A DNA stretch of 34,165 bases. Origin: Bacteroidota bacterium (lineage in GTDB: Bacteria; Bacteroidota; Ignavibacteria; Ignavibacteriales; Ignavibacteriaceae). The notes beneath the pieces were generated by a model that worked only from the letters and a program-made list of their open reading frames with translations, ran no database searches and had not been told where the DNA came from. How positions within the stretch are numbered: position 1 is the first letter of the stretch; each line of letters begins with the position of its first letter. This document shows positions 2,917 through 34,165 of this stretch, piece after piece. The stretch spans positions 1-34,165 of the forward strand of contig JADFPP010000030.1 of NCBI GenBank assembly GCA_022562275.1. The letters are read 5' to 3'. The translations under genes were made by a program, and so were the position numbers.

Positions 2917-2947
2917 TTTACAGAAGAGAAAGAATGTGGATTGATTT

Positions 2948-3268
2948 TCAAATTACAGAATTTAATTTTTCAACTACCTTAGCTTTTGGCACAGCGCCAA
3001 TTATGGTTTCCTTTACTTCACCATCTTTAAAGATCAACAATGTTGGTATGCTTCTAACACCATAATTAATTGAAGTTTGCTGATTCGAATCTACATCCAG
3101 TTTACCGATTTTCGCTTTCCCTTCGAATTCGACAGCAAGTTCTTCAACAATCGGAGCGATCATTTTACAAGGTCCGCACCATACTGCCCAAAAATCAATT
3201 AGTACGGGCTTATCCGAATCGAGAACCTCTTCTTTAAAATTATCATCAGTAATAGTAATTAACGACAT
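2948..3268 (-). CDS. trxA: Thioredoxin
   Basis: Small cytoplasmic dithiol reductase that passes electrons from thioredoxin reductase to proteins such as ribonucleotide reductase. The 106 residues match the family's usual length. The active site WCGPC lies at 30-34, and the conserved cis-proline is P75 in SIPTLL. There is no signal peptide or membrane segment, so it is the cytosolic type. It lies between the SDR gene (34-nt gap) and serA (31-nt gap) on the same strand and is probably co-transcribed with them. Confidence 0.96.
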
Positions 3269-3302
3269 ATTAATTTTCCTTTAAACTTTTGATTATTATG
3301 AT

Positions 3303-4115
3303 TTAATTTTCACCCATATAACTAACAATATCTTCACCACCATCTACATTTATTATTCCACCACTTATCCAATTAGCTTCATCCTTACACAATAATGATA
3401 CCACATTTGCAATGTCATCCGGAGTAGTTAGTCTTTGCCTGGGATTTTTACTTATAGCTACTTCCATCATACTTTTGTTGCCGGGAATTTTTTTCAGTGC
3501 AGGTGTTGCCGTAACTCCTGCCATAATTGCGTTTACTGATGCATTTATCGGTCCAAGTTCAACAGCAAGCTGCCGGATATGTGATTCTAATGCGGCTTTA
3601 GCAGCAGAAACTGCTCCGTAGAATGGAATAGCAGTATGAGCCCCCGAACTTGTCATAGCAAATATATTACAATTATCAGCTAACAAGTTATTTGAATAAA
3701 TTTCCTGCACCCAGTAAACAAGTGAATGAGCCATAACATCTAAGGTCATTTCCATCTGGGCTTTGGTGATGTGATTACTATCTTTCGAGGTAAATTTATT
3801 AAGCGTACCAAATGCCAGAGAATGCATTATTACTTTTATTAATGGTTTGCCCCCAATTTTCTCCTTTATTTGTTGAACTACCTCATTTCTTTTTTCTGCA
3901 TCAGCTGCATTAATATTGAAGAAGACCTGTTCACTGCCAGCGGCTTTTATCTTATTAATTATTTTATTTACGTCGGGCATTGTAGCCTGCCGGTCAAGAT
4001 GTATTCCAGCTATGTTATACCCTTCTTCAGCTAATTTAACTGTAACAGAGCCTCCAATTCCTGATGATGCCCCCAAAATAAGTGCCCAGTATTTATTGTT
4101 TGTTCCCTTAGCCAT
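3303..4115 (-). CDS. SDR-family enoyl-ACP reductase-like protein (FabL/FabI type)
   Basis: A 270-residue Rossmann-fold short-chain dehydrogenase. The nucleotide-binding loop is GASSGIG (15-21). The catalytic Tyr and Lys are Y166 and K173, a Y-x6-K spacing; classical SDRs have Y-x3-K, while the enoyl-ACP reductases FabI and FabL have Y-x6-K. The C-terminal part, with TPALKKIPGN followed by NPRQRLTTPDDIA and a final INVDGG, also matches the FabL/FabI layout. The likely role is the NAD(P)H-dependent reduction of trans-2-enoyl-ACP that closes each fatty-acid elongation cycle. The window also holds accA, another fatty-acid gene, but not next to this one. FabL versus FabI versus a related carrier-protein reductase cannot be decided from sequence alone, so no symbol is given. 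The gap to the trx start is 34 nt. Confidence 0.75.
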   Translation of the reverse strand: MAKGTNNKYWALILGASSGIGGSVTVKLAEEGYNIAGIHLDRQATMPDVNKIINKIKAAGSEQVFFNINAADAEKRNEVVQQIKEKIGGKPLIKVIMHSLAFGTLNKFTSKDSNHITKAQMEMTLDVMAHSLVYWVQEIYSNNLLADNCNIFAMTSSGAHTAIPFYGAVSAAKAALESHIRQLAVELGPINASVNAIMAGVTATPALKKIPGNKSMMEVAISKNPRQRLTTPDDIANVVSLLCKDEANWISGGIINVDGGEDIVSYMGEN

Positions 4116-4216
4116 GGAAATTTCTTAATCTAATTAGTTTATTTTTTATGGTGCGTAATAATACAAAATAGGCATTATTGATACAACCAGTATGGAACCG
4201 GATGAAAACTTAAGAT

Positions 4217-7200
4217 TCATTTACTATTTAAAATTATTGATTCTTCACCTAATAATTTTTTAATTTTAAGTATTAGGTCTTCCTTCAACGATACCTGGTG
4301 CTGGTTTAATGAAAAAAGTTTCCCTTTAGAACCATTGTTGTTCAGGTGTACAAATACCGGAAGTTTTCCCTTATGATTCTCTAGAATTCTTTTCAGATCA
4401 AATAGTTGTTCGATATTATTTTTTCTTTTATCAATTACAATTTTAATGCTTTGGGCTAACTCCTCCCGTGCAATTTCCATTGGTATTAGTTTATTCACAT
4501 GGATCTTTACCGTATCACCGCTGCTTTCAAGATTTCCTAATATAAACACCGGTTCTTCTTCCCTTAAGAATTGACCATACTCAGAATAAATTTTTGAAAA
4601 CATCAGGCATTCACACGAACCCGAAAAATCATCTATCGTAAAAAATGCCATCATCTTTTCTGCCCTGTCAATTTTTGTACGAATATCTGTTATCACACCG
4701 CAGGCTTTTACGTTTTCCATATCCTTTAAGTCTTCTGTCTCACCAATATGAAAATCTGCAAATGAGTTGTATTCGGTTTCATATTTTTGCAGGGGATGAC
4801 CGGAGACATAAAATCCAATTACTTCTCTTTCTCTTTTTAATAATTCTTTCTCACTCCAGGGTTCCTGCTTTTTTAACTGAGGTTCTGTAATGAGTATTTC
4901 TTCTGACCCACCAAACAAGCTATCACTAAGAACAAGTTTAGAATTTTGGGTTTTATGTCCAAAATCAAGTGCTAATCCAACGGATTCAAAAAGAGTTGAT
5001 CTGTTTTTTTCAATTGAATCAAACGCACCTGCTAAAACCAATCCTTCCATTGCCCTTTTATTTACAATCTTTGTATCAACATGCATGCAAAAATCAATTA
5101 TACTGCTGAAATTTCTATCAAGTTTATTTCTCGCTTTAATAATTTCTGCCGCCGCATTTTTACCAACATTTTTAATTGCACACATGCCGAACCTTATTTT
5201 GTTACCTTCCACATCAGAATTGACACTTGGTTTGTTTACATCGGGTGGTAGCACTTCAATCTTTAATTTTCGGCAGTCTTCTAAAAACTTAGTAACTTTA
5301 TCAGGGTTTCCAAATTCATTGGTAAGGTTAGCGGCTAAAAATTCAGCAGTATAGTGTGCTTTAAGATATGCCGTTTGAAATGCAATGAAACTGTAAGCAA
5401 CGGCATGGCTCTTATTAAAACCGTAATTTGCAAAATCATAAATTACTTCAAATATTTTTTCGGTAATCCTCTTTGTAATTTTGTTTTTAACAGCACCTTC
5501 TACAAATTTTACTTTTTGCTCTTCCATTACAACCAGGTCCTTCTTACCCATTGCACGACGCAGAATATCAGCTTCGGTAAGACTCATACCAGCAATCTTA
5601 TTAGCAATTTGAATAACCTGTTCCTGGTAAACAATAATTCCGTAAGTTTCTTTCAGGATATCTTCCAATAAAGGATGCAGATATGTAACTTTTTTAACGC
5701 CTCGTTTTCTATCTATAAATTCGTCTATAAATTTCATGGGACCGGGACGATAAAGTGCATTCATCGCAGCAAGATCACCAAGAGAAGCGGGCTTTAATTT
5801 TTTAAGGTATTCACGCATCGGTGGAGATTCAAACTGAAATATTCCGGTAGTTTGTCCTTTTGCAAATAGCTGGTAAGTTTTCTTATCATCAAGGGCGATG
5901 TTATCGATATCAATTTCAATTCCATAGTTCTTCCGGACAAGTTCAAGCGTATCCCTGATGATGGTTAACGTTCTAAGACCAAGAAAATCCATCTTAAGTA
6001 ACCCGGCATTTTCAATTTCGTTCATATTGAACTGCGTTACAATATCCTGCTGAGAAACAGCGTTAGCAAGTGGTACAAAATCACTCACATCTCCCGGTGT
6101 AATTACAATTCCAGCGGCGTGCTTGGATGCATTTCTGTTCATACCTTCCAACACTTTCGCGTATTTAATCAGATTTTGAATTTCTGCTTCCTTAGACTTC
6201 TCTACCCATTTTAATTCCGGAACTTCTGCAAGTGCCCGGTTAATTGAAAATACCTTTCCAAATTTTGAAGGGATGTATTTGGTTATTTTATTAACAGTTG
6301 GAATGGGGATTTTTAAAACCCTTGCCACATCCCTGATAACTGCCTTTGATGATAACCTGTTGAAAGTTATAATTTGGCTTACACTTTTTTCACCGTACTT
6401 TTTTCGAACATATTCAATTATTTCAGATCTTTGATCATCTGCAAAATCAATATCAATATCAGGCATTGATTTTCTTGCGGGGTTGAGAAACCTTTCAAAA
6501 AGAAGACCGTATTTTAGCGGATTGATATTTGTTATTCCAAGTGCATAAGCTACAAGGCTGCCGGCAACGCTGCCCCTGCCGGGTCCAACGGGAATGCTCT
6601 TTTCTTTTGCAGCATTTATAAAATCCTGAACAATTAAAAAGTAACCTGCAAAACCCATTGTTTTGATTGTATCTATTTCATATTTAAATCGTTCCTCAAT
6701 TTCGGGAGTAATGTCAATTCCTTTATTTTCTAATCCTCTAATTGCCAGTAATTCAAAATATTCATCGATGGATTTTGCTTTTGAATCTTCCGGGATTGGA
6801 AACTGCGGGAAATGGTGTCCTTCAAAATCAAATTTCAGATCAATCTTTGAATCAATTTCAAATGTGTTTTCGATTGCACCCTCATAATTCTTAAAGAGAT
6901 CAATCATTTCTGCAGGGGACTTGAAATAAATCTGGTCCGTCCCGTATCTAAGCTGAGTGTAATCACTACCGTTCTTATCAGAGAGAAGCAAAAGAATATT
7001 ATGAGCTATTGCATGATCTTTTTCAATATAATGGCAATCATTAGTGGCAACTAATTTTATCCCAAGTTCTTTGGAAAATTTTGGCATCCATTCAAGTATT
7101 GGTTTATCAACCGCTTCACCGTGATCCTGTATCTCCAGATAAAAATCATCTTCAAAAATATTTTTAAAAGTTTTTGCAACATCCCTGGCTTTATCAATCT

Positions 7201-7675
7201 CATTATTTACCAGGCAGGAAGAGACGATACCTCCGGCACAAGCCGAGGTACAAATTAGTCCATCCCTGTATTTTTCCAGCAATTCCAGATCTATTCTTGG
7301 TTTGTAATAGAATCCCTCAGTATGCCCTAAAGTAGAAAGTTTTGATAAATTATTATAACCGGTTTTATTTTTTGCTAATAATATTAAATGATTATAATGT
7401 TTATTTTTCTTTCTGCCATTTATCTCATTAGTTTTACCTCTATCAAATCTGCTGCCTTCTCTAACAATATATGCTTCCATACCAACAATGGGTTTTATCC
7501 CCGCTGCAGTTGCCTTTCTGTAAAACTCTGCAATTCCATACATTACTCCATGATCTGTTAAAGCAACTGATTTCATATTAAATTTTTTGGCAGCATCAAC
7601 CAGTCCATCAACAGTGCATGCACCGTCTTGTAAACTGTAATGGGTATGGTTATGTAGGTGAATAAATTCTGGCAT
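4217..7675 (-). CDS. dnaE: DNA polymerase III alpha subunit
   Basis: Replicative polymerase of 1152 residues, the usual length of a DnaE-type C-family polymerase. The N-terminal PHP domain starts with HNHTHYS (8-14) and DHG (41-43). The palm has GPGRGS (364-369) and the catalytic acidic cluster PDIDIDFADD beginning at 405, with D406 and D408 as metal ligands. A helix-hairpin-helix region follows, and the C-terminal part (about 980-1080) is the OB-fold that binds single-stranded DNA. There is no intein or exonuclease insertion, so proofreading would come from a separate DnaQ or from the PHP domain. It sits alone, 101 nt upstream of the SDR gene and 272 nt downstream of dut. The ATG at 7675 begins the conserved PHP motif region directly, so the start is secure. 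Confidence 0.97.
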   Translation of the reverse strand: MPEFIHLHNHTHYSLQDGACTVDGLVDAAKKFNMKSVALTDHGVMYGIAEFYRKATAAGIKPIVGMEAYIVREGSRFDRGKTNEINGRKKNKHYNHLILLAKNKTGYNNLSKLSTLGHTEGFYYKPRIDLELLEKYRDGLICTSACAGGIVSSCLVNNEIDKARDVAKTFKNIFEDDFYLEIQDHGEAVDKPILEWMPKFSKELGIKLVATNDCHYIEKDHAIAHNILLLLSDKNGSDYTQLRYGTDQIYFKSPAEMIDLFKNYEGAIENTFEIDSKIDLKFDFEGHHFPQFPIPEDSKAKSIDEYFELLAIRGLENKGIDITPEIEERFKYEIDTIKTMGFAGYFLIVQDFINAAKEKSIPVGPGRGSVAGSLVAYALGITNINPLKYGLLFERFLNPARKSMPDIDIDFADDQRSEIIEYVRKKYGEKSVSQIITFNRLSSKAVIRDVARVLKIPIPTVNKITKYIPSKFGKVFSINRALAEVPELKWVEKSKEAEIQNLIKYAKVLEGMNRNASKHAAGIVITPGDVSDFVPLANAVSQQDIVTQFNMNEIENAGLLKMDFLGLRTLTIIRDTLELVRKNYGIEIDIDNIALDDKKTYQLFAKGQTTGIFQFESPPMREYLKKLKPASLGDLAAMNALYRPGPMKFIDEFIDRKRGVKKVTYLHPLLEDILKETYGIIVYQEQVIQIANKIAGMSLTEADILRRAMGKKDLVVMEEQKVKFVEGAVKNKITKRITEKIFEVIYDFANYGFNKSHAVAYSFIAFQTAYLKAHYTAEFLAANLTNEFGNPDKVTKFLEDCRKLKIEVLPPDVNKPSVNSDVEGNKIRFGMCAIKNVGKNAAAEIIKARNKLDRNFSSIIDFCMHVDTKIVNKRAMEGLVLAGAFDSIEKNRSTLFESVGLALDFGHKTQNSKLVLSDSLFGGSEEILITEPQLKKQEPWSEKELLKREREVIGFYVSGHPLQKYETEYNSFADFHIGETEDLKDMENVKACGVITDIRTKIDRAEKMMAFFTIDDFSGSCECLMFSKIYSEYGQFLREEEPVFILGNLESSGDTVKIHVNKLIPMEIAREELAQSIKIVIDKRKNNIEQLFDLKRILENHKGKLPVFVHLNNNGSKGKLFSLNQHQVSLKEDLILKIKKLLGEESIILNSK

Positions 7676-7801
7676 GAATCAAACTAAAATAAACTGCCTT
7701 TGAAGAAAAAAATAAATTAAAAAGAATTGTGAAATTCCTGATGGAATATTACATAATTCAAATAACAAAATCCAAAGCAAGATACATTAGTGTTGAAAAG
7801 T

Positions 7802-7855
7802 AAAGTGATAGAAATTCCATCTTTCTCGATTTATTACTTTATTCACTATCACTTT
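7802..7855. repeat. Inverted repeat with 34-nt loop in the dut-dnaE gap
   Basis: The arms AAAGTGATAG (7802-7811) and CTATCACTTT (7846-7855) are perfectly complementary over 10 bp. Neither strand has a T-run right after the stem, so a terminator is not well supported. It may be an operator-like site or a remnant of a repeat in the 272-nt gap between dut and dnaE. Confidence 0.4.
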
Positions 7856-7883
7856 TCCAGTAAGAAATAATTTATTCGTTTTT

Positions 7884-7922
7884 CGTAGGCAACAGTACGC
7901 AGGACAATTGTCCTGCGCTACG
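7884..7922. repeat. Perfect 20-bp palindrome within a longer stem (REP-like)
   Basis: CGCAGGACAATTGTCCTGCG (7898-7917) is a perfect 20-bp palindrome. It lies within an outer CGTAG (7884-7888) / CTACG (7918-7922) pair. It is far more GC-rich than its surroundings. On the plus strand TTTTT follows the stem, but no plus-strand gene precedes it. The shape suggests a dispersed REP-like palindromic unit, though it could also slow transcription downstream of dut on the minus strand. Confidence 0.55.
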
Positions 7923-7947
7923 TTTTTGAATTACCATTGATCAAGGA

Positions 7948-8406
7948 TTATTGACTTCCCGTATGACCAAATCCACCCTCTCCCCGATCACTTTGATTTA
8001 ATTCTTTCACTTCCACCAATTTTACTTTATAAACTTTGGAAACTACTAACTGTGCAATTCTATCTCCGGGCTGAATAGTAAATTTTTCACTGCTAAAATT
8101 TATGAGGATAATTTTTATTTCTCCCCTGTAATCAGAGTCTATTGTTCCTGGCGAGTTTAATATCCCAATTCCATGATTTGCCGCCAGACCACTTCTCGGT
8201 CTAACCTGTATTTCATACCCATAAGGAATTTCTACCAAAAGATTAGTTGGGATCATTTTTATTTTCATTGGTTCCAAAACAACCGGTTCTATTATCGCCG
8301 CATGAATATCCATGCCTGCGCTTCCATCAGTTGCATACGATGGGATAGGAATTTTATTAAATTCTTCCGAAAGACGTTTAAATTTTATTATTACTTCGTC
8401 AAGCAT
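7948..8406 (-). CDS. dut: Deoxyuridine 5'-triphosphate nucleotidohydrolase (dUTPase)
   Basis: Hydrolyses dUTP to dUMP and pyrophosphate, keeping uracil out of DNA and supplying dUMP for dTMP synthesis. It is a homotrimeric cytosolic enzyme. All five family motifs are present in 152 residues: AGMDIHA (30-36), RPRSGLA (69-75), GTIDSDYRGEIKI (87-99, catalytic D90), RIAQLV (116-121), and the C-terminal RGEGGFGHTG (141-150), which closes over the substrate. It starts 3 nt after the flippase stop, so the two are probably translated from one mRNA; flippase-dut pairs are common in Bacteroidota. A second, clearly different dut begins at 33943 in this window. Confidence 0.96.
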   Translation of the reverse strand: MLDEVIIKFKRLSEEFNKIPIPSYATDGSAGMDIHAAIIEPVVLEPMKIKMIPTNLLVEIPYGYEIQVRPRSGLAANHGIGILNSPGTIDSDYRGEIKIILINFSSEKFTIQPGDRIAQLVVSKVYKVKLVEVKELNQSDRGEGGFGHTGSQ

Positions 8407-8409
8407 GTT

Positions 8410-9876
8410 TTATTTTCCACGCGATTCCTTAAGCTTTGTTTTTATTGTTTTAATTTCATTTCTATCAACCGCAAAAAAGTACAGATACAAAATGAACGCC
8501 ACCAACAGAATTGATTTTTCAATTAGGGCTAAATAGTAATTTTCAGTTACAAAGAAATAATAAGCTAAAGCCATTAAGAACACCCCGATAAATATTTTTA
8601 TTATTTTATCCCATTCATAAATTATATGATAAAATTTTTGGGTTACAACATAGTAACCAATGGCCATAACAAGATACGCGATGAAAGTTGCAAATGCAGC
8701 ACCCATAAAACCCATAACAGGTATTAATGCAAAGTTAGTGATTATATTTAATGCTGCACCGGCTCCGGCAATAAAGGGAACGTAAAGACTTTTCTCTGCA
8801 ATATAAATGCCGGCAGAGAAGATTACATATATACCGTTAATTAGATAAGCAAGAAGAATGATGGGTACAATATCTAATCCGCTCCAATAGGCAGAACCGA
8901 TTATTGAATAACCGGCAATGTTTATTTGTGCCAGATCAGCCACGAACAATGATATGCCCACAACCAGGATGCTGCCAACCAGAGTAAAATAAGTTAGTAT
9001 TTTTGCAAACATCGCTTTAGCATTTTCCTCTTTTGCATTCTGCAAAAAGAATGGCTGCCAGGCATATTGAAACATATTCACAAACAGCATCATAAAAATC
9101 CCAAGCTTGTAGTTTGCTTTATATACACCAACGGTTTTTAAATCTGTTAATCTCTCTAATATTGGCACATCTATTACCTGAACAAGCATTACAGCTAATC
9201 CGGCAGGAAAATAGGGAAGACCGAATTTTATGAATCTCTTAAAAAGCCGGGTATTAAATTCAAACTTTAAATACCGGAGGATTGTTGGGATCAATAATAT
9301 TAATGAAACCAGCGAAGCAATAATATTACTGAATAAAATTGCTTCAATTCCCCAATTAAGTACGAGAACTAAATATAAATTAAGTACAAGGTTAGTGCAG
9401 ATATTAATGATCTTAAATAATGAAAACTTTTTTGCTTCCCTGTTCAATCGTAACTTTAAAAATGGAATTACTCCGTTAGTATCTAAAAAGATTATGGCGG
9501 CGGCAAGATATATCAGGTAATAATAATCTTCGGGGATACCTAACTTATCGGCAATGGTGCTTTGAAAGTAAATTATAATAAAGCCAAACATTAATGACGT
9601 AACGAAAACCGAAATGTAAGGTGTGGAAAAATTATCTTTGTCGGTGCCCTCATCTTTAAATGCAGCAAACTTTAGGAAAGCAGAGTCCATTCCGTATATA
9701 TAAAAAATATTCAGTATCGCTACATACGCATACACAATCTGAACAATCCCATACTCTGAAGGATCAAATATATTTGTAAAGAAAGGGATCAATAAAAAAT
9801 TCAGAAATCTGCCCACCATAGTGCTGACACCATAAATGGCGGTATCCATGCTTAACTGTTTTAGCTTATCAAACAT
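8410..9876 (-). CDS. Polysaccharide flippase (Wzx/RfbX-like, MOP superfamily)
   Basis: An integral membrane protein of 488 residues with about 12-14 hydrophobic helices along its whole length. This is the size and pattern of the polysaccharide-transport branch of the MOP exporter superfamily, which flips undecaprenyl-linked oligosaccharides (or lipid II in the MurJ branch) across the inner membrane. The N-terminal region around MDTAIYGVSTMVGRFLNFLL fits the Wzx family start. It is followed 3 nt later by dut and preceded by a thioesterase gene (36-nt gap). It is separate from the polysaccharide cluster at 10752-23899, which has its own flippase, so it probably serves another glycan. The exact substrate cannot be read from sequence. 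Confidence 0.87.
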   Translation of the reverse strand: MFDKLKQLSMDTAIYGVSTMVGRFLNFLLIPFFTNIFDPSEYGIVQIVYAYVAILNIFYIYGMDSAFLKFAAFKDEGTDKDNFSTPYISVFVTSLMFGFIIIYFQSTIADKLGIPEDYYYLIYLAAAIIFLDTNGVIPFLKLRLNREAKKFSLFKIINICTNLVLNLYLVLVLNWGIEAILFSNIIASLVSLILLIPTILRYLKFEFNTRLFKRFIKFGLPYFPAGLAVMLVQVIDVPILERLTDLKTVGVYKANYKLGIFMMLFVNMFQYAWQPFFLQNAKEENAKAMFAKILTYFTLVGSILVVGISLFVADLAQINIAGYSIIGSAYWSGLDIVPIILLAYLINGIYVIFSAGIYIAEKSLYVPFIAGAGAALNIITNFALIPVMGFMGAAFATFIAYLVMAIGYYVVTQKFYHIIYEWDKIIKIFIGVFLMALAYYFFVTENYYLALIEKSILLVAFILYLYFFAVDRNEIKTIKTKLKESRGK

Positions 9877-9912
9877 TGTTCAAATCTTTGGCAAAGGAAA
9901 ATTTCATTAAAT

Positions 9913-10335
9913 TCATTTATTAGGTTGTGTGAAAAACGGACTGATCACTTTCATAAAAAATTCCGGCGGGCGGCAAATCTTTTTTGATTCTTTTTTAATA
10001 AATACAAGCTCGATATATCCTTCACAAATAATAATACCTCTATCAGCACTCCTTACAGTATGATCTAAATGTACTATTAACTCGGGGATTTTCTCAATGC
10101 GTGTTTCTACTTCAAGCAGCTCATCGTAATGAGCGGGATTTTTATATTTGATAAATACCTCATGCACCGGCATCAGGTATCCGTTCTCTTCAATCGATTT
10201 ATAGGTGAGATTCTGTTCCCGCATCATTTCAGTTCTTCCAACTTCAAAATACTCAAAGTACTTTCCGTTATATGCATATTGCATTTGATCGGTATCAGCA
10301 TATCTTACACGGATTTGAGTTTTATGAATAAACAT
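9913..10335 (-). CDS. Acyl-CoA thioesterase, hotdog fold (4HBT/YbgC-like)
   Basis: A 140-residue single-domain hotdog protein. The N-terminal RYADTDQMQYAYNGKYFEYF stretch (11-30) matches the 4-hydroxybenzoyl-CoA thioesterase/YbgC/FadM signature, with D16 in the position of the catalytic aspartate. The helix EVGRTEMMRE (31-40) completes the conserved core. Members cleave acyl-CoA or acyl-ACP thioesters in the cytoplasm; YbgC proteins often act in phospholipid or envelope metabolism, but substrate varies and cannot be inferred here. It stands at the head of the flippase-dut pair. No strong Shine-Dalgarno sequence is visible before the ATG. Confidence 0.88.
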   Translation of the reverse strand: MFIHKTQIRVRYADTDQMQYAYNGKYFEYFEVGRTEMMREQNLTYKSIEENGYLMPVHEVFIKYKNPAHYDELLEVETRIEKIPELIVHLDHTVRSADRGIIICEGYIELVFIKKESKKICRPPEFFMKVISPFFTQPNK

Positions 10336-25318: not shown

Positions 25319-26440
25319 ATGTCTAAGTTAAATTTAGAACAGCTTGTAAATCTTTATTCTCTTCTATCGATAGAAGGAATTGGACCCGGTAAAATTCGGA
25401 GCTTGTTGGCTAAGTTCAAATCGACCGAAAAAATTCTTTCTTCAGATTATAAATCTTTACTGGAAGCGGAAGGAATTAATTATAATCTTGCAGGCAGAAT
25501 ACAAGGTGCAGCCAAAAACCGAAAGCGAATTAAAATATGGGTTGAAGAACAATTAGATGACCTTCAAAAATTGAATGCTGAAATAATAACAATATGGGAT
25601 GAGAGTTATCCCCGGCTTCTAAAAAAAATTTATGATCCGCCTCTCGTGCTTTATATCATAGGCAGTCTTACAGATTTCGATGAATATTCAATTGCGATTG
25701 TGGGAACAAGACAGCCGACAAATTATGGCAGAGTTCAGACAGAAAGAATTTCCGGTGATCTTGCAGAGCAGAATATTACAATTGTAAGCGGGATGGCAAG
25801 AGGGATCGATTCAATCTCTCATTCTGCAGCCATAAGTAAAGGAGGGAGGACGATAGCCGTTATCGGCTCAGGATTGGATGTAATTTACCCGCCTGAAAAC
25901 AATAAATTATTTAAAATGATTTGTGAAAACGGAGCAGTGATAAGTGAGTTTGTATTGGGCACCAAACCTGATGCAATGAACTTTCCTAAAAGGAACAGGA
26001 TTATCTCCGGAATAAGTTTAGGTTGTATAATAATTGAAACCCGTGTGGACGGCGGTGCAATGCAGACAGCAAGATTTGCTCTCGATCAAAATAGAGAAGT
26101 TTTTGCCGTACCCGGCAATCTAGGTGTTAAGCAATCTGAAGGCACTAACAGGCTTATTCAGAAAGGTGAAGCAGAATTGATCAAATCTGCCGAGGATGTA
26201 CTGCTTGAACTCGAATTAAAATTGAAACCGGTTCTTGGAAAGAACATACCTAAACACCAGGAAGAGTTAAATCTTTTTGAAGAAAAAATTTATACCGCAT
26301 TAAATTCCGAAGCCCTGCTGATCGATAATATAGCTAAAGCAACAGATCTTTCTACATCCGATTGCCTGGTTCATTTGCTATCGCTTGAGTTTAAAGGATT
26401 AGTAAAACAGTTACCCGGCAAAATGTTTATGCTTATGTGA
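25319..26440 (+). CDS. dprA: DNA-processing protein DprA
   Basis: Binds incoming single-stranded DNA during natural transformation and loads RecA. It has 373 residues with the usual three parts: an N-terminal helix-hairpin-helix/SAM-like region (about 1-90), a Rossmann-fold DNA-binding core with GTRQPTNYGR, SGMARGIDS, GSGLDVIYPPEN and FPKRNRIISG, and a C-terminal winged-helix (about 315-373) with LIDNIAKATDLS. All core blocks appear intact. It starts 30 nt after the EutN-like gene. Its last 162 bp (26267-26428) are repeated at 28178-28339 with 11 differences, 9 of them synonymous. Other competence genes are not visible here. Confidence 0.96.
   Translation: MSKLNLEQLVNLYSLLSIEGIGPGKIRSLLAKFKSTEKILSSDYKSLLEAEGINYNLAGRIQGAAKNRKRIKIWVEEQLDDLQKLNAEIITIWDESYPRLLKKIYDPPLVLYIIGSLTDFDEYSIAIVGTRQPTNYGRVQTERISGDLAEQNITIVSGMARGIDSISHSAAISKGGRTIAVIGSGLDVIYPPENNKLFKMICENGAVISEFVLGTKPDAMNFPKRNRIISGISLGCIIIETRVDGGAMQTARFALDQNREVFAVPGNLGVKQSEGTNRLIQKGEAELIKSAEDVLLELELKLKPVLGKNIPKHQEELNLFEEKIYTALNSEALLIDNIAKATDLSTSDCLVHLLSLEFKGLVKQLPGKMFMLM
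26267..26428 (+). repeat. Left copy of the dprA 3'-end direct repeat
   Basis: This 162-bp stretch inside dprA is 93% identical to 28178-28339 in direct orientation (11 mismatches, no gaps). The two copies bracket the GT39-like gene. Confidence 0.9.
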
Positions 26441-26481
26441 GTTAGATTATCATTTAAATAGTTTGTTTTTTTTGAGATAGA

Positions 26482-28131
26482 ATGATGACGTTTCATAGAA
26501 AAGATTTATTAGCATTAAGCATAATAATAGTTTGCTGGATCGCATTACTTCTGCTATCTGATGTCCGTGGAAATTTTCCTTTAAATGATGATTGGTCTTA
26601 TGCACATTCCACAAAAGTCTTCGTTGAAGATGGTAGAATTGAACTGACCGGCTGGGCAAGTATGCCTATTATTACTCAAATAATTTGGGGTTCTTTATTC
26701 TGTTCTTTCGCGGGATTTTCATTTGAAGCTCTCAGATTATCTACTATAGTTCTTAGCATTATTGGGATAATCTTTTGTTATTTGATTTTCAATGAAGCTA
26801 CAAAACGAGTATACTTTAAATTTGTTGCAACCTTTCTAATCGCAATCAATCCGATTTATTTTTTACTTTCCTCAACTTTTATGACGGACATCCCCTTTTT
26901 TACTTTGTCTTTAATATCTACATTTTTATTTGTAAAATTTTTTAAGACGGAAAATAAATACCATTTTCTTATTGGCTTTCTTTTTATTGTTGCTGCTTCA
27001 TTTATAAGACAGATAGGTATTCTGGTTTTACTTTCATTTGCACTCACATATTCGCTAAACAAAAATAATCCGCTTCAAAAGAAAATATATTCAATATTGT
27101 CTGTTCTAGTATTAATTCTACTACTATTTCTTTCTCAATACTTAATAATAAGTGCTGTTGATAATCCGTTAATTAATAACCACAGGATGGACAAACTTAT
27201 AGATGCATTTTCGATTGTAAATATATTTGGATTAATTCCTTTGTTAAAGAATAGTTTTTTTGCTTTGATATATATAGGTTTATTTTTATTTCCATTTCTT
27301 ATAAATCATTGCTTTATGCTGATAAAAAAATATTCCTTCACAAAAAGCAAATTTTATTCAGCCATTTTTGTATTTTCAGTAATCATACTAATCCCGATGA
27401 CAATCTTTAATAAATTATTACCTCTAAGACCAAATATTATCTGGAAATATGGAATTGGACCTGCTACTTTAAAAGATGTTGATATTCTTGAGCTGCCTCA
27501 TATAAATCAAATACCGCAAGCTATTTGGATATTGCTAACATTAATTGGGATCATAGGATCTATTCTAATAATTATCACGATCTTTTTATACTTTAAGGAA
27601 AACAAATTTAAGGAACTGATTTATTCAGATTGTCCTTCTGTTTTCATTTTCATTACTGTCTGCCTAACTTTAATTATTTTAAGTCTATCAAATTTTTATG
27701 ACCGATATCTGCTTCAATTACTTCCATTGATAATCTTTTTAGTTTTAAAAACATATAACAAAGAAATCGCTACGCGTAACTACTTTGTAGAAAAAATTAG
27801 TTATCTGATTTTAGCACTGATAACCTTGTTTACAGTTTATGAGACACAAAATTATTTTTCATGGAACAGGAGTAGGTGGGAAGCAATTAAATATTTAACT
27901 GATGATCTAAAAATACAGCCGGATAGTATCGATGGAGGCTTCGAATTTAATGCATGGATCGGATACGAACCAAAGTATATCCCTTCTAAATCCAAAAGCT
28001 GGTGGTGGGTTAAAGATGATACTTACTTAATTACATTTGGTGAACTAAAAAATTACACCATAATTAAAAAATTTAAATATCACTCATTTTTAAAAACGAA
28101 GTATTTATATGCTCTAAAACGAAAGGATTAA
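26482..28131 (+). CDS. GT39-like membrane glycosyltransferase (ArnT/PMT family)
   Basis: A 549-residue protein with about 11-12 membrane helices. The first periplasmic loop has NFPLNDDWSYA, matching the acidic (D/E)-rich motif after helix 1 in GT39 and ArnT proteins, where it holds the catalytic aspartates. These enzymes use polyprenyl-phosphate-linked sugars as donors and glycosylate lipid A or proteins outside the membrane. The C-terminal 70 residues are soluble (FSWNRSRWEAIKYLTDDL, then WWWVKDD). A polyprenyl-phosphate-sugar synthase of the right kind is at 13696. The gene sits between dprA and a diverged copy of the dprA 3' end, pointing to acquisition by recombination. The acceptor is unknown. 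Confidence 0.82.
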   Translation: MMTFHRKDLLALSIIIVCWIALLLLSDVRGNFPLNDDWSYAHSTKVFVEDGRIELTGWASMPIITQIIWGSLFCSFAGFSFEALRLSTIVLSIIGIIFCYLIFNEATKRVYFKFVATFLIAINPIYFLLSSTFMTDIPFFTLSLISTFLFVKFFKTENKYHFLIGFLFIVAASFIRQIGILVLLSFALTYSLNKNNPLQKKIYSILSVLVLILLLFLSQYLIISAVDNPLINNHRMDKLIDAFSIVNIFGLIPLLKNSFFALIYIGLFLFPFLINHCFMLIKKYSFTKSKFYSAIFVFSVIILIPMTIFNKLLPLRPNIIWKYGIGPATLKDVDILELPHINQIPQAIWILLTLIGIIGSILIIITIFLYFKENKFKELIYSDCPSVFIFITVCLTLIILSLSNFYDRYLLQLLPLIIFLVLKTYNKEIATRNYFVEKISYLILALITLFTVYETQNYFSWNRSRWEAIKYLTDDLKIQPDSIDGGFEFNAWIGYEPKYIPSKSKSWWWVKDDTYLITFGELKNYTIIKKFKYHSFLKTKYLYALKRKD

Positions 28132-28177
28132 AAATCAGTATCTTTTAATTTTCTTCCACAAAAACTTGAGCCACTCT

Positions 28178-28339
28178 TTAAATCTTTTTGAAGAAAAAAT
28201 TTACACCGCATTAAATTCAGCAGCCCTGCTGATCGATAATATAGCTAAAGCTACAGATCTATCTACATCCGACTGCCTGGATCATTTGTTATCGCTTGAG
28301 TTTAAAGGATTGGTAAAACAATTACCCGGTAAAATGTTT
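28178..28339 (+). pseudogene. dprA: dprA 3'-end remnant (winged-helix fragment)
   Basis: Encodes the last part of the DprA winged-helix domain (LNLFEEKIYTALNS to GKMF) without the rest of the gene. It aligns without gaps to 26267-26428. Of 11 nucleotide differences, only two change the protein (Glu to Ala, Val to Asp). The frame runs on past the homology to a stop at 28406-28408, starting ALTLGYLITP, which does not match the intact dprA end. A start codon at 28166 exists, but expression is doubtful. Mainly synonymous change means both versions were under selection before they were brought together. Confidence 0.88.
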
Positions 28340-28524
28340 GCCCTAACTTTAGGGTATTTGATTACTCCGATCATTTCTCTATATCATCAATTTGCTCGTC
28401 GCCGTTAAACATACAAATCCGTTCTGTTTTGAAATCCTTAAATATGGCACAACAATTGACCCATAATTGCTGTATTTAATTAAAATCTTGTTAAAATATT
28501 CTCATTATGTGGAGAAATAATTTT

Positions 28525-29112
28525 ATGAAGTTTTTCAAACATATTAATTTATTGCTGTTATTAATATTATTTGTCTCTTGTTTAGAAGATACTGGAGATC
28601 TCTCAATTGAGAGCATTTTAGATAGAGGATCTCAGATATATCCTCCAGGTGCCGACAGTATTTTTATATCAATGGGTTTACCAAGTAATGTAATTCCTGA
28701 ATTGGAAAAGTCAAAAGTAATTGATGGAACATCCGGGGGGTTATTAGAAATCTATTTTGAACATAGTGATGAAAATATTTCTATAAAAATTGATGCGTCT
28801 TTAACTATCCCACCCGGAGCTTTTTCAGGTACAGAGCGAATTTGGATGGTGTTAAACAACGAAACTGGAACAATATGGTTTTACCCTCATTTGGCTTTCA
28901 GTATTCCTGTTCAATTTGATATTATATACCAAGGTGTCAATTTATTTGGTAGCAATCCTGATAAGATCGATTTTATATTTCAAAATAACGATGGAACAAT
29001 TGAACAAGTTAACTACACGAAAATAGTGATTTACGAAGAGGCGGAAGGATACTACTTGAAATTAAAGGAAGGAATGTTAAATCATTTTTCCCGCTACGGA
29101 TGGTCAAGATAA
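28525..29112 (+). CDS. Predicted lipoprotein of unknown function
   Basis: The ATG at 28525 gives 195 residues: MKFFKHINLLLLLILFVSC is a lipoprotein signal with Cys 19 as the lipidated residue (lipobox FVSC). GGAG lies about 10 nt upstream, which favours this start over the ATG at 28507. The mature part contains a beta-rich domain with IPPGAFSGTERIWM, resembling extracellular domains with a ZU5-like pattern, and ends in FSRYGWSR. It has no neighbours in a shared operon; it stands between the dprA and rarA remnants, whose cargo genes converge on it. No known family was assigned. Confidence 0.75.
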   Translation: MKFFKHINLLLLLILFVSCLEDTGDLSIESILDRGSQIYPPGADSIFISMGLPSNVIPELEKSKVIDGTSGGLLEIYFEHSDENISIKIDASLTIPPGAFSGTERIWMVLNNETGTIWFYPHLAFSIPVQFDIIYQGVNLFGSNPDKIDFIFQNNDGTIEQVNYTKIVIYEEAEGYYLKLKEGMLNHFSRYGWSR

Positions 29113-29186
29113 AAATATAATCATACTTAAACGTTCTATTTTTCATGAACATCGAGTTGATACTGTTGTTTCGGTAGAGAAACAAA

Positions 29187-29303
29187 TTAGTACTTTTTGA
29201 TACCCTGCCAAAAGAATTTCAATCTTTCTTTAATGTTCTTTTCCTGACCATTCTCTGTAGGAAAATAGAATTGTCTACCCTTCAATTCTTCAGGCAAATA
29301 ATT
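29187..29303 (-). pseudogene. rarA: rarA 3'-end remnant (diverged copy)
   Basis: Translates to the last 38 residues of RarA plus a stop: NYLPEELKGRQFYFPTENG, then QEKNIKERLKFFWQGIKKY. The intact rarA at 30726 has NYLPEDLKGKQFYFPTENG, then QEKNIKDRLKFFWKNKKKYG. Over the first 32 codons about 82% of bases match, and only three conservative changes (D/E, K/R, D/E) occur, so most differences are synonymous. Homology ends abruptly near 29303, only 12 nt from the stop of the ATPase gene. The fragment has no start of its own. It is a displaced rarA allele end, not a fresh copy. Confidence 0.85.
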
Positions 29304-29315
29304 CACTTGATCTAT

Positions 29316-30494
29316 TTATACTATACTTCCTCCGTAAATATAATTACTAAAGTTTGAGGCAGCACTCCTGCCAATAAGGAAAACATTTTTAATTCCAGTT
29401 TTGTTTGTTAATCTTTTAGTTTTATTAAAATCGATTTCGGAAGGTGTCGTTTTCACTTCGAAGGCAAAATTTTTATTCAAAATAAAATCTATTTCGCGTC
29501 CTGATTTTAAAGAGTAATATTGTAAATCTCCGAAATGTTTTAATTGATTGAATACGGCATTTTCAAACTGCACTCCGCTATCTAATTCAGCTAATTGATT
29601 TGCTATTCCGTTATCGTTAAAATATAATTTCTTTGCTTTAACAATTTCACGGTCTTTATTGAGTGTAAGCACAGACAGCATCGTTATCAGATAAGTTTTC
29701 TCAAAAAACTCAAGATAGTTTTTAACCGTGTGTCTTGAAAACCCGCTCGCCGATGCAATTTTTGTATATTCAATTTTGCTCCCGATTCTCGAAGATAGTA
29801 AACTGATGAATTTGAACAGATCGTTGGAATATTTGAAATCAGCAAGAGTACGGATATCAATGTTAATGTAAGAATCAATTATATCTTTAAGTAAATCTTT
29901 TTTATCATCTACACTTTTAGATAAGGCAACTTCCGGAAAACCGCCATATGAAATAAAAGAATCAAACAAAAAATTTAATCTCTGATATTCGCTTAAAAGA
30001 AAGTTGTTCTCAAATTTCTTTAAAGGTGAAAATTCGATGTCGTTAAATAAGAGAAATTCACCAAAGTCTAAAGGATACAGCTCAAAAACTTTTTTCCTCC
30101 CCGATAACGATTCGGTAAACATATCTTTAAGATAATACGAGCTGGATCCGGTAACCATAAATTTAATATCATAATTATCATAAAGATATTTTATAACACT
30201 TGAAATATTCGGCACCAACTGAATTTCGTCGATGCAAATCAATGACTTTTCTTTAAAATCAATGCCTCTTTGATTAAGCGCAAGAATAACATTTTCATAA
30301 TTCGGTTCGCTAAAAACCTGCCTGTTATCCATTCGTTCAAGATCGATATAGATTTTATTTTTCAAAGGAGAGATATTCAAAAGCTTTTGCAGCAAGGTAG
30401 TTTTTCCTGTACGCCGCATACCGGTAATTACCGTAATTTGCTTCTTCTTAAGGTGCGAAATAAGTTCAGGATATATTTTTCTTTCGATGAACAT
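29316..30494 (-). CDS. AAA_14-DUF4143 ATPase with winged helix and nuclease-like domain
   Basis: A 392-residue protein of the large AAA_14/DUF4143 family, found in mobile and accessory regions. Walker A is GMRRTGKTT (25-33) and Walker B is LICIDEIQ (85-92). A winged-helix lies at about 243-270 (SASGFSRHTVKNYLEFFEK). The C-terminal DUF4143 part has E311, GREIDFIL (D336) and FEVK (E346, K348), the pattern of a PD-(D/E)xK nuclease-like fold with all acidic positions kept. The biological role of the family is not well defined. Its promoter is a perfect sigma70 consensus within four operator-like half-sites. It is bracketed by intact rarA and a rarA 3' remnant. The 5' leader would be only about 16 nt and has no Shine-Dalgarno sequence. 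Confidence 0.88.
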   Translation of the reverse strand: MFIERKIYPELISHLKKKQITVITGMRRTGKTTLLQKLLNISPLKNKIYIDLERMDNRQVFSEPNYENVILALNQRGIDFKEKSLICIDEIQLVPNISSVIKYLYDNYDIKFMVTGSSSYYLKDMFTESLSGRKKVFELYPLDFGEFLLFNDIEFSPLKKFENNFLLSEYQRLNFLFDSFISYGGFPEVALSKSVDDKKDLLKDIIDSYINIDIRTLADFKYSNDLFKFISLLSSRIGSKIEYTKIASASGFSRHTVKNYLEFFEKTYLITMLSVLTLNKDREIVKAKKLYFNDNGIANQLAELDSGVQFENAVFNQLKHFGDLQYYSLKSGREIDFILNKNFAFEVKTTPSEIDFNKTKRLTNKTGIKNVFLIGRSAASNFSNYIYGGSIV

Positions 30495-30501
30495 AATTAT
30501 T

Positions 30502-30564
30502 ACTATTTGTTAACTCCATTATACAAATAGTATAACTATTTGTCAAGTATATTTAACAGATAGT
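30502..30564. promoter_or_regulatory. Symmetric four-half-site operator over a perfect promoter
   Basis: Half-sites are ACTATTTGT (30502-30510), ACAAATAGT (30523-30531), ACTATTTGT (30535-30543) and ACAGATAGT (30556-30564, one mismatch). The arrangement is symmetric about 30533, with 12-nt gaps in each outer pair and 3 nt between pairs. On the minus strand the promoter TTGACA (30541-30546), 17-bp spacer, TATAAT (30518-30523) lies inside the array, so a bound protein would block RNA polymerase. Autoregulation of the ATPase gene is a natural guess. Confidence 0.8.
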
Positions 30565-30620
30565 AAAGTAACTGCCCGGAAAGATGTCTGCTTTATTCTG
30601 ATTAAGCTTCATCACTCAAA

Positions 30621-30720
30621 TTTTAAATTTCAAATAAATTCCAATCTCAAAAATTCAATAATCAAAGTTTGGTAAATGAATATTGTGATTTATTTGGAAA
30701 TTATTATTTGTGATTTGAAT
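30621..30720. repeat. AT-rich quasi-palindromic spacer behind rarA
   Basis: AAATTTCAAATAAATT (30625-30640) is a near inverted match of 30687-30702 (GATTTATTTGGAAATT), with further related words such as ATTTGTGATTTG nearby. No gene or clear terminator is seen in 30565-30725. It resembles low-complexity intergenic repeats built from AATTTG-like words. Confidence 0.4.
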
Positions 30721-30725
30721 TTTCT

Positions 30726-32018
30726 TCAGCCATATTTCTTCTTGTTCTTCCAGAAAAACTTAAGTCTATCTTTAATATTTTTTTCCTGTCCGTTTTCGGT
30801 TGGAAAGTAGAATTGTTTTCCCTTCAAATCTTCAGGCAAATAATTCTCTGCCACAAAATTATTTTCAAAATCGTGCGCATATTTATACGTTTTACCATAA
30901 CCAATATCTTTCATCAGTTTTGTCGGTGCGTTTCGTAAATGCAAAGGGACGGGATATAGAACATTATTCTTAACTTCCTGCTCAGCATTTTTTATTCCCA
31001 TATATGATGCATTACTCTTAGGGGCAGAAGCAAGATACGTAACACACTGAGCAAGAATAATTCTCGCCTCCGGCATCCCAATTTTATGAACTGCATCAAA
31101 TGCTGCCGCGGCTAATACTAACCCATTCGGTGAGGCATTCCCAATATCTTCTGAGGCAAGAATAACTAACCGGCGGGCAATAAAAAGCGGGTCTTCCCCT
31201 CCTTCAAGCATCCGTGCCAACCAATACAACGCTGCATCCGGATCGCTGCCTCTAACACTTTTTATGAAAGCAGATATAATATTATAATGCTCTTCACCTG
31301 CTTTATCATAAAATATATTCTTTCTTTGAACAACATTTTCCAGAACTTCTTTTGTGATTTTTATTGGCTCTGATTCAATCTCTTGTACAACTGATGATTC
31401 CAAAATATTTAACAACGTCCTGGCATCGCCGCCGGATAAATACAGCAGGTAATCAACATCAACATGTTCAATTTTCAAAGTAGAAAGAAAGACATCATTT
31501 CGTAAAGCTGTATCCAAAATTTTTTGAAGATCATTTTTACCAAGATCATCAAGAATATAAACCCGCGCCCGCGAACGCAAAGCAGGAATAACTTCGAACG
31601 ATGGGTTTTCGGTAGTAGCACCAATTAAATAAATAAGTCCAGTTTCAACTGAACTCAGTAATGCATCCTGCTGAGCTTTATTAAACCGGTGTATCTCATC
31701 TATAAAAAGTATTGTCTTTTTTTTCATAAGCCTATTTTGTTCGGCAATCTCAATAACGCGTCTTAAATCTTTTACACCCGAAGACACGGCATTAACCTGG
31801 TAAAAATCTGCTTTTGTTTTTTCTGCTATTATTTTAGCGATAGTAGTCTTTCCGGAACCAGGCGGTCCCCAAAGAATAAATGATGATAGTGCGTCATTCT
31901 CAATCATCAGACGAATTGGTTTACCCTCCCCAACCAGTTTTTCCTGACCATAAAATTCATCTAAATTTTTCGGTCTAACTCTTTCGGCAAGAGGAATATC
32001 AGGAATATTATTTATCAT
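30726..32018 (-). CDS. rarA: Replication-associated recombination protein A
   Basis: AAA+ ATPase of the RarA/MgsA/WRNIP1 family, acting as a homotetramer at stalled replication forks with SSB. It has 430 residues. Walker A GPPGSGKTT (51-59), Walker B ILFIDEIH (103-110), sensor 1 ATTENPS (134-140) and the arginine finger region LRSRARV are intact. The C-terminal MgsA tetramerisation region includes AAFDAVHKIGMPEARI and PLHLRNAPTKLMKDIGYG. Its start overlaps the end of the FtsB-like gene by 11 nt, so the two are translationally coupled. The 3' end has a diverged second copy at 29187-29303. Confidence 0.95.
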   Translation of the reverse strand: MINNIPDIPLAERVRPKNLDEFYGQEKLVGEGKPIRLMIENDALSSFILWGPPGSGKTTIAKIIAEKTKADFYQVNAVSSGVKDLRRVIEIAEQNRLMKKKTILFIDEIHRFNKAQQDALLSSVETGLIYLIGATTENPSFEVIPALRSRARVYILDDLGKNDLQKILDTALRNDVFLSTLKIEHVDVDYLLYLSGGDARTLLNILESSVVQEIESEPIKITKEVLENVVQRKNIFYDKAGEEHYNIISAFIKSVRGSDPDAALYWLARMLEGGEDPLFIARRLVILASEDIGNASPNGLVLAAAAFDAVHKIGMPEARIILAQCVTYLASAPKSNASYMGIKNAEQEVKNNVLYPVPLHLRNAPTKLMKDIGYGKTYKYAHDFENNFVAENYLPEDLKGKQFYFPTENGQEKNIKDRLKFFWKNKKKYG

Positions 32019-33655: not shown

Positions 33656-33946
33656 CTACGTTTATCATCAATATTGTTTCCTTATAATATTGTATTGAGG
33701 TTTGCTATTACAACCATAGCTGAATATAGGAGCAAGGTGATACTATCTTCCAGGCAGATAACACGATGCATTTTCAAGCAATCTAAAAAAATAATAAGTT
33801 ACTTATTGTTATCGGTAGTATTTTCGGTACTTTCATTTTATATTTTCGATGAGAATATTTTGACAGGTACAGCATTAATACTGGTACTTATTTTATGGTT
33901 ATATATTTCTAAAGAAAAGGAAATTTTAAAAATATTTAAAAAATGA
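33656..33946 (+). pseudogene. Flippase 3'-end remnant (Wzx-like C-terminus)
   Basis: An open frame from just after a stop at 33653-33655 with no ATG; the first usable start codons are TTG 33674 and TTG 33689. The last 80 or so residues hold two membrane helices (ISYLLLSVVFSVLSFYIF and ALILVLILWLYISKE) and a lysine-rich tail. It aligns with the C-terminus of the flippase at 8410 over about 80 residues, nearly without gaps (FAITTIA against FATFIAY, the KII before the helix, and similar ends). It overlaps the next dut as ATGA, the same flippase-dut order as at 7948-9876. It is most likely the leftover end of a lost flippase gene, though a small membrane protein cannot be excluded. Confidence 0.55.
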
Positions 33947-34165
33947 CAATCAAAATTATAAACAAATCTGGTCATCCATTACCGCACTATGAAACACAAG
34001 CCTCCGCTGGAATGGACTTACGTGCTTCATTAGAAACCGCTACAACTTTAAGACCTTTGGAACGAGCCATAATTAAAACAGGCCTTTTTATCGAGCTTCC
34101 TATTGGGTATGAGGCACAGGTTCGCCCTCGAAGTGGGTTGGCAGCAAAAAAAGGTATGACTGTAT
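33943..34165 (+). CDS. dut: Second dUTPase, N-terminal part (cut by window edge)
   Basis: The first 74 residues of a dUTPase. Motif 1 is SAGMDLRA (21-28) and motif 2 is RPRSGLA (61-67). The start [20 protein letters not shown] is typical of the Bacteroidota dUTPase branch. It differs widely from the dut at 7948 (whose first motif region reads PSYATDGSAGMDIHA), so the two are not recent duplicates. The ATG at 33943 overlaps the stop of the flippase remnant (ATGA). The C-terminal motifs 3 to 5 lie beyond the window, so it is not known if it is complete. Confidence 0.9.

Follow-up and report, generated by a model that had tools for sequence, protein, structure and literature searches.

How has a pair of conserved neighbouring genes come to be separated by several passenger genes, and why are the passenger genes interspersed with diverged pieces of the same two neighbours? 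This question is raised by the convergent genes dprA and rarA in a 34,165-bp stretch of DNA (in the following, the window), which is contig C18 of a genome of 3.40 Mb in 148 contigs. For comparison, we refer to the sister genome G004, to the same-genus relatives G001 and G003, and to G098, which belongs to another genus.

The interval between dprA and rarA

The interval comprises the following features, in which D, D′ and D″ denote the dprA ends and R, R′ and R″ the rarA ends.

25319-26440, plus strand: dprA (DNA_processg_A, DprA_WH), the last 174 bp being the tail copy D
26482-28131, plus strand: cargo 1, a 549-aa glycosyltransferase-like protein (PMT_2)
28135-28189, minus strand: R′, a foreign rarA 3′ end including the stop codon, colinear with G098 up to 28189
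28178-28345, plus strand: D′, a displaced dprA 3′ end, overlapping R′ at TTAAATCTTTTT
28507-29112, plus strand: cargo 2, a 201-aa putative lipoprotein (by eye; no Pfam family)
29187-29307, minus strand: R″, a displaced rarA 3′ end including the stop codon
29316-30494, minus strand: cargo 3, a 392-aa AAA_14/DUF4143 ATPase
30551-30605, plus strand: D″, a decayed dprA end corresponding to its last ~52 bp
30606-30725: spacer between dprA and rarA, colinear with that of G004 (123 bp)
30726-32018, minus strand: rarA, the last ~98 bp (R) being G004-like, with a breakpoint near 30820-30824

In this order (D, glycosyltransferase, R′; D′, lipoprotein, R″; ATPase; D″, spacer, R), the dprA-rarA junction is present three times in the window, each of the two genes being represented by three ends in tandem. 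D′ lies beyond the 549-aa gene on the strand of dprA and matches D over 162 bp (28178-28339), its native stop being out of frame as judged by eye, and R″ lies beyond the 392-aa gene on the strand of rarA and matches R over 103 bp (29205-29307). Local alignment scores of 269 for D versus D′ and 111 for R versus R″, compared with maxima of 33 and 37 in 100 shuffles, have ruled out a chance origin of the tail copies. The preliminary description of this DNA, which had read dprA, cargo and a partial dprA on the plus strand and rarA, cargo and a partial rarA on the minus strand, with the cargo in the orientation of its host gene, has therefore been confirmed in this respect, the copies being 93% and 82% identical. 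Its further statement that the rarA cargo sits directly behind the rarA stop has to be corrected, as 231 bp including D″ and the G004-colinear spacer lie between them. Only a lipoprotein gene had been noticed between the two triplets; the 201-aa gene is indeed found there, but R′, which abuts D′ and still reads FKEWLKFLWKKIKRY*, had been missed, and likewise D″.

D″ is located between the ATPase gene and rarA and reads VK*LPGKMSALF* (by eye). Together with the spacer, it is colinear with the spacer of G004 (score 216, shuffle maximum 50), and in a comparison with the dprA ends of 18 loci, 17 have exceeded their own 100-shuffle maximum, all at 30551-30605, the exception being L012. The best scores against single dprA ends are 57 and 53, with shuffle maxima of 29 and 38. 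As the similarity of this right-hand unit to G004 drops to about 0.7-0.76 left of 30631, D″ may have another history than R. G004 itself carries a single dprA-rarA junction, and DNA searches of the window's own genome (E ≤ 0.001) have yielded no further copy of either tail. Two different dUTPase-like genes (by eye) are also present in the 34 kb, at 7948-8406 on the minus strand and, cut by the end of the window, at 33943-34164 on the plus strand.

The junction and its tails in related genomes

Convergent dprA and rarA on one contig within 5 kb have been found in 57 of the 79 genomes searched (own genome included; counted by hand). The gap between the protein matches is below 150 bp in 47 of these 57 and above 500 bp in 10, again including the own genome. 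The contents of the long gaps differ, with a glycosyltransferase-like gene in G032, a methyltransferase in G008, a 367-aa ORF without Pfam family in G003, and ORFs read by eye in G022, G037 and G061, while two of the ten (L063; L048/L091) lack any ORF of 60 aa. The dprA-rarA junction is thus a place where relatives keep different passenger genes. The ORF-free gaps of ~970 bp at L063 (11123-12094) and L048 (3765-4725) possibly represent decayed cargo. In local alignments of 12 relatives' long-gap loci, some of which are the same genome in two collections, no tail remnant has clearly exceeded the shuffles, the borderline scores being 33 for L048 and L091 (maxima 31 and 33) and, on the opposite strand, 30 for L012 (maximum 28); cargo at this junction accordingly seems to come usually without remnants. 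A stand-alone dprA or rarA tail has been seen in one of 79 genomes, the own one, among the matches listed; one of the two underlying lists reaches down to ~23 bits, so that tails as short as R′ or D″ would escape. On this count the stack at dprA-rarA is unusual, even if the kind of event behind it need not be.

Relatives of cargo 1 (E ≤ 1e-40) occur in three of 80 family genomes, namely the own genome, G032 and G098, and in all three the gene lies beside a rarA end; an earlier search of 50 genomes for the 549-aa glycosyltransferase had given none outside the own genome. In G032, the gene sits between dprA and rarA and is 53% identical to that of the window at the amino acid level, and in G098 it lies beside rarA near a contig end. 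DNA identity between G098 and the window amounts to 85% over 867 bp, running from the end of the gene across a short gap into the end of rarA, by which alignment cargo 1 and R′ have been shown to be colinear with another genus. The match ends at 28189, within the 12 bp TTAAATCTTTTT where D′ begins, and, as judged from these alignments, the R′/D′ joint is illegitimate, the joined places being non-homologous. For the 201-aa gene, only weak relatives have been obtained (best 40% over part of the length). The ATPase of cargo 3 has a relative of 77% amino acid identity elsewhere in G003. A relative of this AAA_14/DUF4143 cargo in that genome (L230, G003:C122, 3519-6511) lies between ORFs of 208 and 221 aa that have a 219-bp stretch of 71% identity in common.

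Both flanking genes bear on the question of which ends are of foreign origin. The last five dprA codons in the window (MFMLM*) are closer to other genera, the four best loci agreeing at 13 of 15 bases, than to the same genus, with 8-10 of 15; the other genera include that of G098, represented by G100, and the similarity may weakly mark a donor edge. The identities of D and D′ to relatives do not decide which is the host's own. For rarA, the last 98 bp show four mismatches to G004, compared with 11 in the lowest other 98-bp window and a background of 20% (p 3e-6), and no such jump has been seen with G001 (26 mismatches) or G003 (27). Of the 19 sites that differ between R and R″, R agrees with G004 at 16, R″ at two and neither at one. 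The comparison has thus shown that the current rarA end is G004-like and the rest of rarA is not, and that R″ is a different, displaced allele, probably the one that the host carried earlier. Near the 5′ edge of the tail, R and R″ agree against G004 at 30824, 30825, 30834 and 30849, and once deeper in the tail at 30771, while two sites in the edge zone, 30828 (R″ as G004) and 30847 (R as G004), run contrary to a breakpoint pattern. These edge sites would roughly correspond to the breakpoint expected from a homologous end inside the tail together with an illegitimate end at its edge; alternatively, R could have been overwritten later, or the exchange with G004 could have gone in the opposite direction.

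Cassettes between gene copies at other loci

The preliminary description had proposed a survey for genes followed by cargo and a partial copy of the same gene, and within the own genome this survey has turned out positive. A downstream same-strand copy of a gene 3′ end has been recorded 22 times in 1.19 Mb of the own genome (81 stretches, 1057 ORFs) and six times for 1225 ORFs in 80 relatives' loci around dprA, which are core-gene neighbourhoods and thus not a matched control. Half of the 22 records have been set aside by eye: L121 as tandem GIY-YIG genes, L163 as a dispersed repeat, and L151, L156, L162, L173, L175 (three records), L190 and L191 as paralogues or as genes with a C-terminal domain in common. 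The other 11 comprise dprA, rarA, the TetR, rsmI, DUF2779, TPR-SH3 and acetyltransferase genes, EamA (two records) and the short tails at L159 and L172; the lysC/M20 case has been added by a survey of direct repeats. At six further genes (TetR, rsmI, DUF2779, TPR-SH3, acetyltransferase and lysC/M20), one or two small genes lie between the copies, and alignments have shown this pattern of gene, cassette and partial copy also at one gene of G003.

In four of these six, the cassette is a toxin-antitoxin (TA)-type pair, namely HEPN and nucleotidyltransferase at rsmI and TPR-SH3, HicA and HicB at the acetyltransferase gene, and BrnT and BrnA at lysC/M20, while the DUF2779 gene holds a DUF559 gene and the TetR gene a pair without Pfam family. 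As TA-type domains have been found in two of ten random small ORFs scanned from the own genome (20 drawn, several lying at repeats left out), a TA enrichment among the cassettes is only suggestive. The lysC/M20 repeat measures 253 bp and spans the gene boundary; in G004, lysC ends about 17 bp before M20. At rsmI, it is the displaced and not the attached copy that leads into downstream sequence resembling that of G004 (by eye). A PIN and MazE-like pair (L159) and a Fic gene (L146) are likewise flanked by repeats, which have not been assigned to a gene. Among the relatives, G003 carries a nucleotidyltransferase and HEPN pair behind a gene tail and a DUF433 and DUF5615 pair immediately behind rsmI, the single-contig genome G006 carries MqsA and RelE between 214-bp direct repeats, and at L060 a pair with weak, below-cut-off matches to PhdYeFM and YafQ lies between 62-bp repeats.

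Direct repeats around one to three ORFs have been counted 26 times in 1.19 Mb of the own genome, 0 times in 0.2 Mb of G001, twice in 0.06 Mb of G003, 14 times in 0.17 Mb of G004 (one array accounting for 11), once in 0.1 Mb of G006, 0 times in 0.1 Mb of G030, six times in 0.1 Mb of G023, and four times in 1.32 Mb of dprA loci. The direct-repeat survey that had added lysC/M20 also takes in arrays (L174, and L217 with most of the 23 hits of G004) and repeats outside genes, so that raw rates are not comparable. The presence of such structures in relatives indicates that the kind is not confined to the own genome, and these counts do not mark its rate here as exceptional. The array at L174 (G000:C61, 1963-5250), in the own genome, is a smaller one with repeats of 120-170 bp around ORFs of 108-360 aa, and that at L217 (G004:C31:1-20000, ~2000-10200) resembles a gene-cassette array, its repeats of ~150-260 bp being separated by single genes or small groups of genes. 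At L184 (G000:C71, 11014-14904), an EamA gene is followed by two tail copies, the first after ~180 bp and the second behind a PMT_2 gene; this is perhaps a second stacked case, with the cargo domain seen at dprA.

The divergence between the copies has been analysed in ten coding pairs, all of them gene tails except for one gene head and all from the own genome except for one from G003, with repeat lengths of 67-253 bp and 6-18% divergence; the 51-55 bp tails at L159 and L172 have been kept outside the synonymous-site test. Pooled over the ten pairs, 86 of 157 differences are synonymous. The expectation is 36 without constraint and 58 with one copy constrained at kappa 2 (P < 5e-6), and 41 and 65, respectively, at kappa 4 (P 0.0005 for the latter); 86 has been reached in none of 200,000 simulations, except under kappa 4 with one copy constrained. 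This pooled excess rejects duplication followed by decay. Taken singly, with one copy constrained and without kappa correction as the null, decay is rejected by dprA (9 synonymous to 2 nonsynonymous, p 0.003), rarA (13:6, p 0.0002) and acetyltransferase (10:6, p 0.014), the TetR, TPR-SH3, EamA and G003 pairs give p values of 0.05-0.11, and rsmI, DUF2779 and M20 do not reject it (p 0.31, 0.36 and 0.38). The longest identical run exceeds random expectation at p < 0.01 in four of the nine tail pairs (TetR, DUF2779, TPR-SH3 and G003) and at p 0.03 in the acetyltransferase pair, with no significance in dprA (p 0.75), rarA (p 0.29), rsmI and EamA. Such mosaics of diverged, identical and again diverged sequence point to recombination or gene conversion.

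These numbers bear directly on an alternative in which an insertion, by some unknown mechanism, duplicates ~100-250 bp of recipient DNA, and the copies then diverge in place. The repeat lengths together with the addiction-type cargo fit the available parts of published descriptions (PMC1643837, PMC3874152), the 253-bp duplication across the lysC/M20 boundary is in line with it, and so are the pN/pS ratios of 0.35-0.40 in the rsmI, DUF2779 and M20 pairs. The pooled synonymous excess, however, rejects decay even with one copy constrained at kappa 4, the dprA, rarA and acetyltransferase pairs do so individually, and R′ is impossible as a duplicate of the recipient dprA. We regard this explanation as unlikely.

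A possible mechanism and known systems

The homeologous recombination considered in the preliminary description has gained support, as the copies differ mainly at synonymous sites (9 of 11 in dprA, 13 of 19 in rarA), R′ matches the rarA end of another genus, and the current rarA end, unlike the rest of the gene, is G004-like. The explanation that we favour, with reasonable though not strong confidence, is an additive, partly illegitimate homologous recombination with the DNA of relatives at core-gene junctions, the array at dprA-rarA representing at least two events. Donor DNA across the dprA-rarA junction would have been added rather than exchanged, at least twice, with homologous recombination within a flanking core-gene tail at one end and illegitimate joining at a few matching bases at the other. 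A combination of one homologous and one illegitimate end would leave an extra dprA or rarA tail per event. We infer natural transformation as the supplier of the DNA, the use of microhomology at the illegitimate end, the order of events within the array and the assignment of donor and recipient, which has been taken from single genomes. The role of dprA in transformation, to which attention had been drawn at the outset, is probably incidental, because rsmI, lysC/M20 and the TetR gene show the same kind of pattern. Altogether, the sequences suggest that passenger genes may be added by imprecise DNA exchange between relatives.

A more far-reaching and rather doubtful idea is that the two copies of the core-gene piece act as homology arms for pairing with the one copy present in a new host, which would make the cassette a recombinase-free mobile unit. 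If true, TA pairs and single genes would move between relatives, swap tail alleles each time and stack at favoured junctions; the mosaics in four of nine pairs (p < 0.01; dprA and rarA not among them) are compatible with this as the expected trace of a double crossover within a single recipient copy. TA systems move between genomes and the fixation of acquired ones is not yet understood, as stated in the available part of a review (PMC2654758), and the transposase-free spread of small chromosomal TA pairs and single passenger genes is a question touched by this genome. The scars retain a duplicated gene piece and remain readable, which makes donor, joint and age testable at each of them, and at dprA-rarA a single junction is seen to collect several cassettes in a row.

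An assembly chimera of co-occurring strains in the metagenome might also produce copies that resemble strain alleles, as they do here, in an assembly of 148 contigs. We consider it very unlikely, because the match at the R′/D′ joint is only about 12 bp, D′ and D″ are degenerate and not functional alleles, and the repeat-flanked TA pair of G006 stands in a single-contig genome. Usual assembly word lengths are probably longer than this ~12-bp match. Integrative elements that target gene ends and bring a replacement 3′ end and a recombinase would account for the complete reading frames of the attached tails and for the different relation of the rarA tail and the gene body to G004. They are highly improbable, since Pfam searches have revealed no recombinase family in the window cargo and none in the flanked cassettes scanned except for Y1 transposases at L159 (5336-5995) and L238, the targets are many unrelated genes, the ten repeats are long, with a divergence of 6-18%, and the lysC/M20 repeat comprises more than a 3′ end. 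Least credible is the account of the preliminary description, in which dprA and rarA each received an independent insertion and the two converge: two triplets are indeed visible, but R′, D″ and the conserved adjacency of dprA and rarA make the interval one stack of junction copies.

The earlier view that no named system has this form has proved too strong, as minimal mobile elements, homology-facilitated illegitimate recombination (HFIR) and insertion with long target duplication come close. A gene-end duplication around TA pairs has not been found in the TA- and Ignavibacteria-directed literature covered (titles and abstract openings, few subscription journals). The minimal mobile element reportedly goes back to Saunders and Snyder in 2002. 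In the available description, different cassettes are inserted in different strains by homologous recombination (PMC3898611). As far as this description goes, the different whole-gene cassettes between two conserved genes, dprA and rarA, in different genomes are alike, and the homology of flanking genes as the vehicle fits; unlike there, the cassettes are stacked here and separated by broken copies of the two flanking genes. A purely homologous incorporation would agree with a rarA tail common to the G004-like lineage, yet the R′/D′ joint does not lie between homologous places. HFIR is described, in the text available, for the laboratory transfer of small linear or non-replicative DNA (PMC3240628). 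On that account, the extra tails, the ~12-bp match at R′/D′ and the breakpoint in the rarA tail would follow from a homologous joint at one end and an illegitimate one at the other, whereas repeated natural events at one junction are proposed here from sequence. Of the two kinds of joint, the illegitimate one is represented by R′/D′, and the homologous side at dprA may be indicated by its last five codons, which are closer to other genera.

Insertion with long target duplication is reportedly due to Nobusato in 2000. The accessible parts of its descriptions concern restriction-modification genes (PMC1643837, PMC3874152). Small gene units between direct repeats of the order of 100 bp are alike in both cases, and direct repeats of the target around an insert, 103-253 bp in length, have been found here, with single copies in G004 (dprA-rarA, lysC/M20). 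Compared with these partial descriptions, other genes are involved here and the pooled copies look like diverged alleles and not like simple duplicates; for dprA and rarA, the synonymous excess and the relations of R′ and R do not agree with both copies stemming from the recipient target. In transformation merodiploids of Streptococcus pneumoniae, the available account reports tandem duplications of ~100 to ~900 kb (PMC3784515). There, too, duplications result when part of the transforming DNA is repeated in the chromosome, but the gene pieces here measure 50-250 bp. Most features are accounted for by minimal mobile elements and HFIR in combination; long target duplication accounts for the repeat geometry and leaves the foreign tails unexplained. 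Measured against the descriptions of these three, the stacking and the homeologous tails are what is new at this locus.
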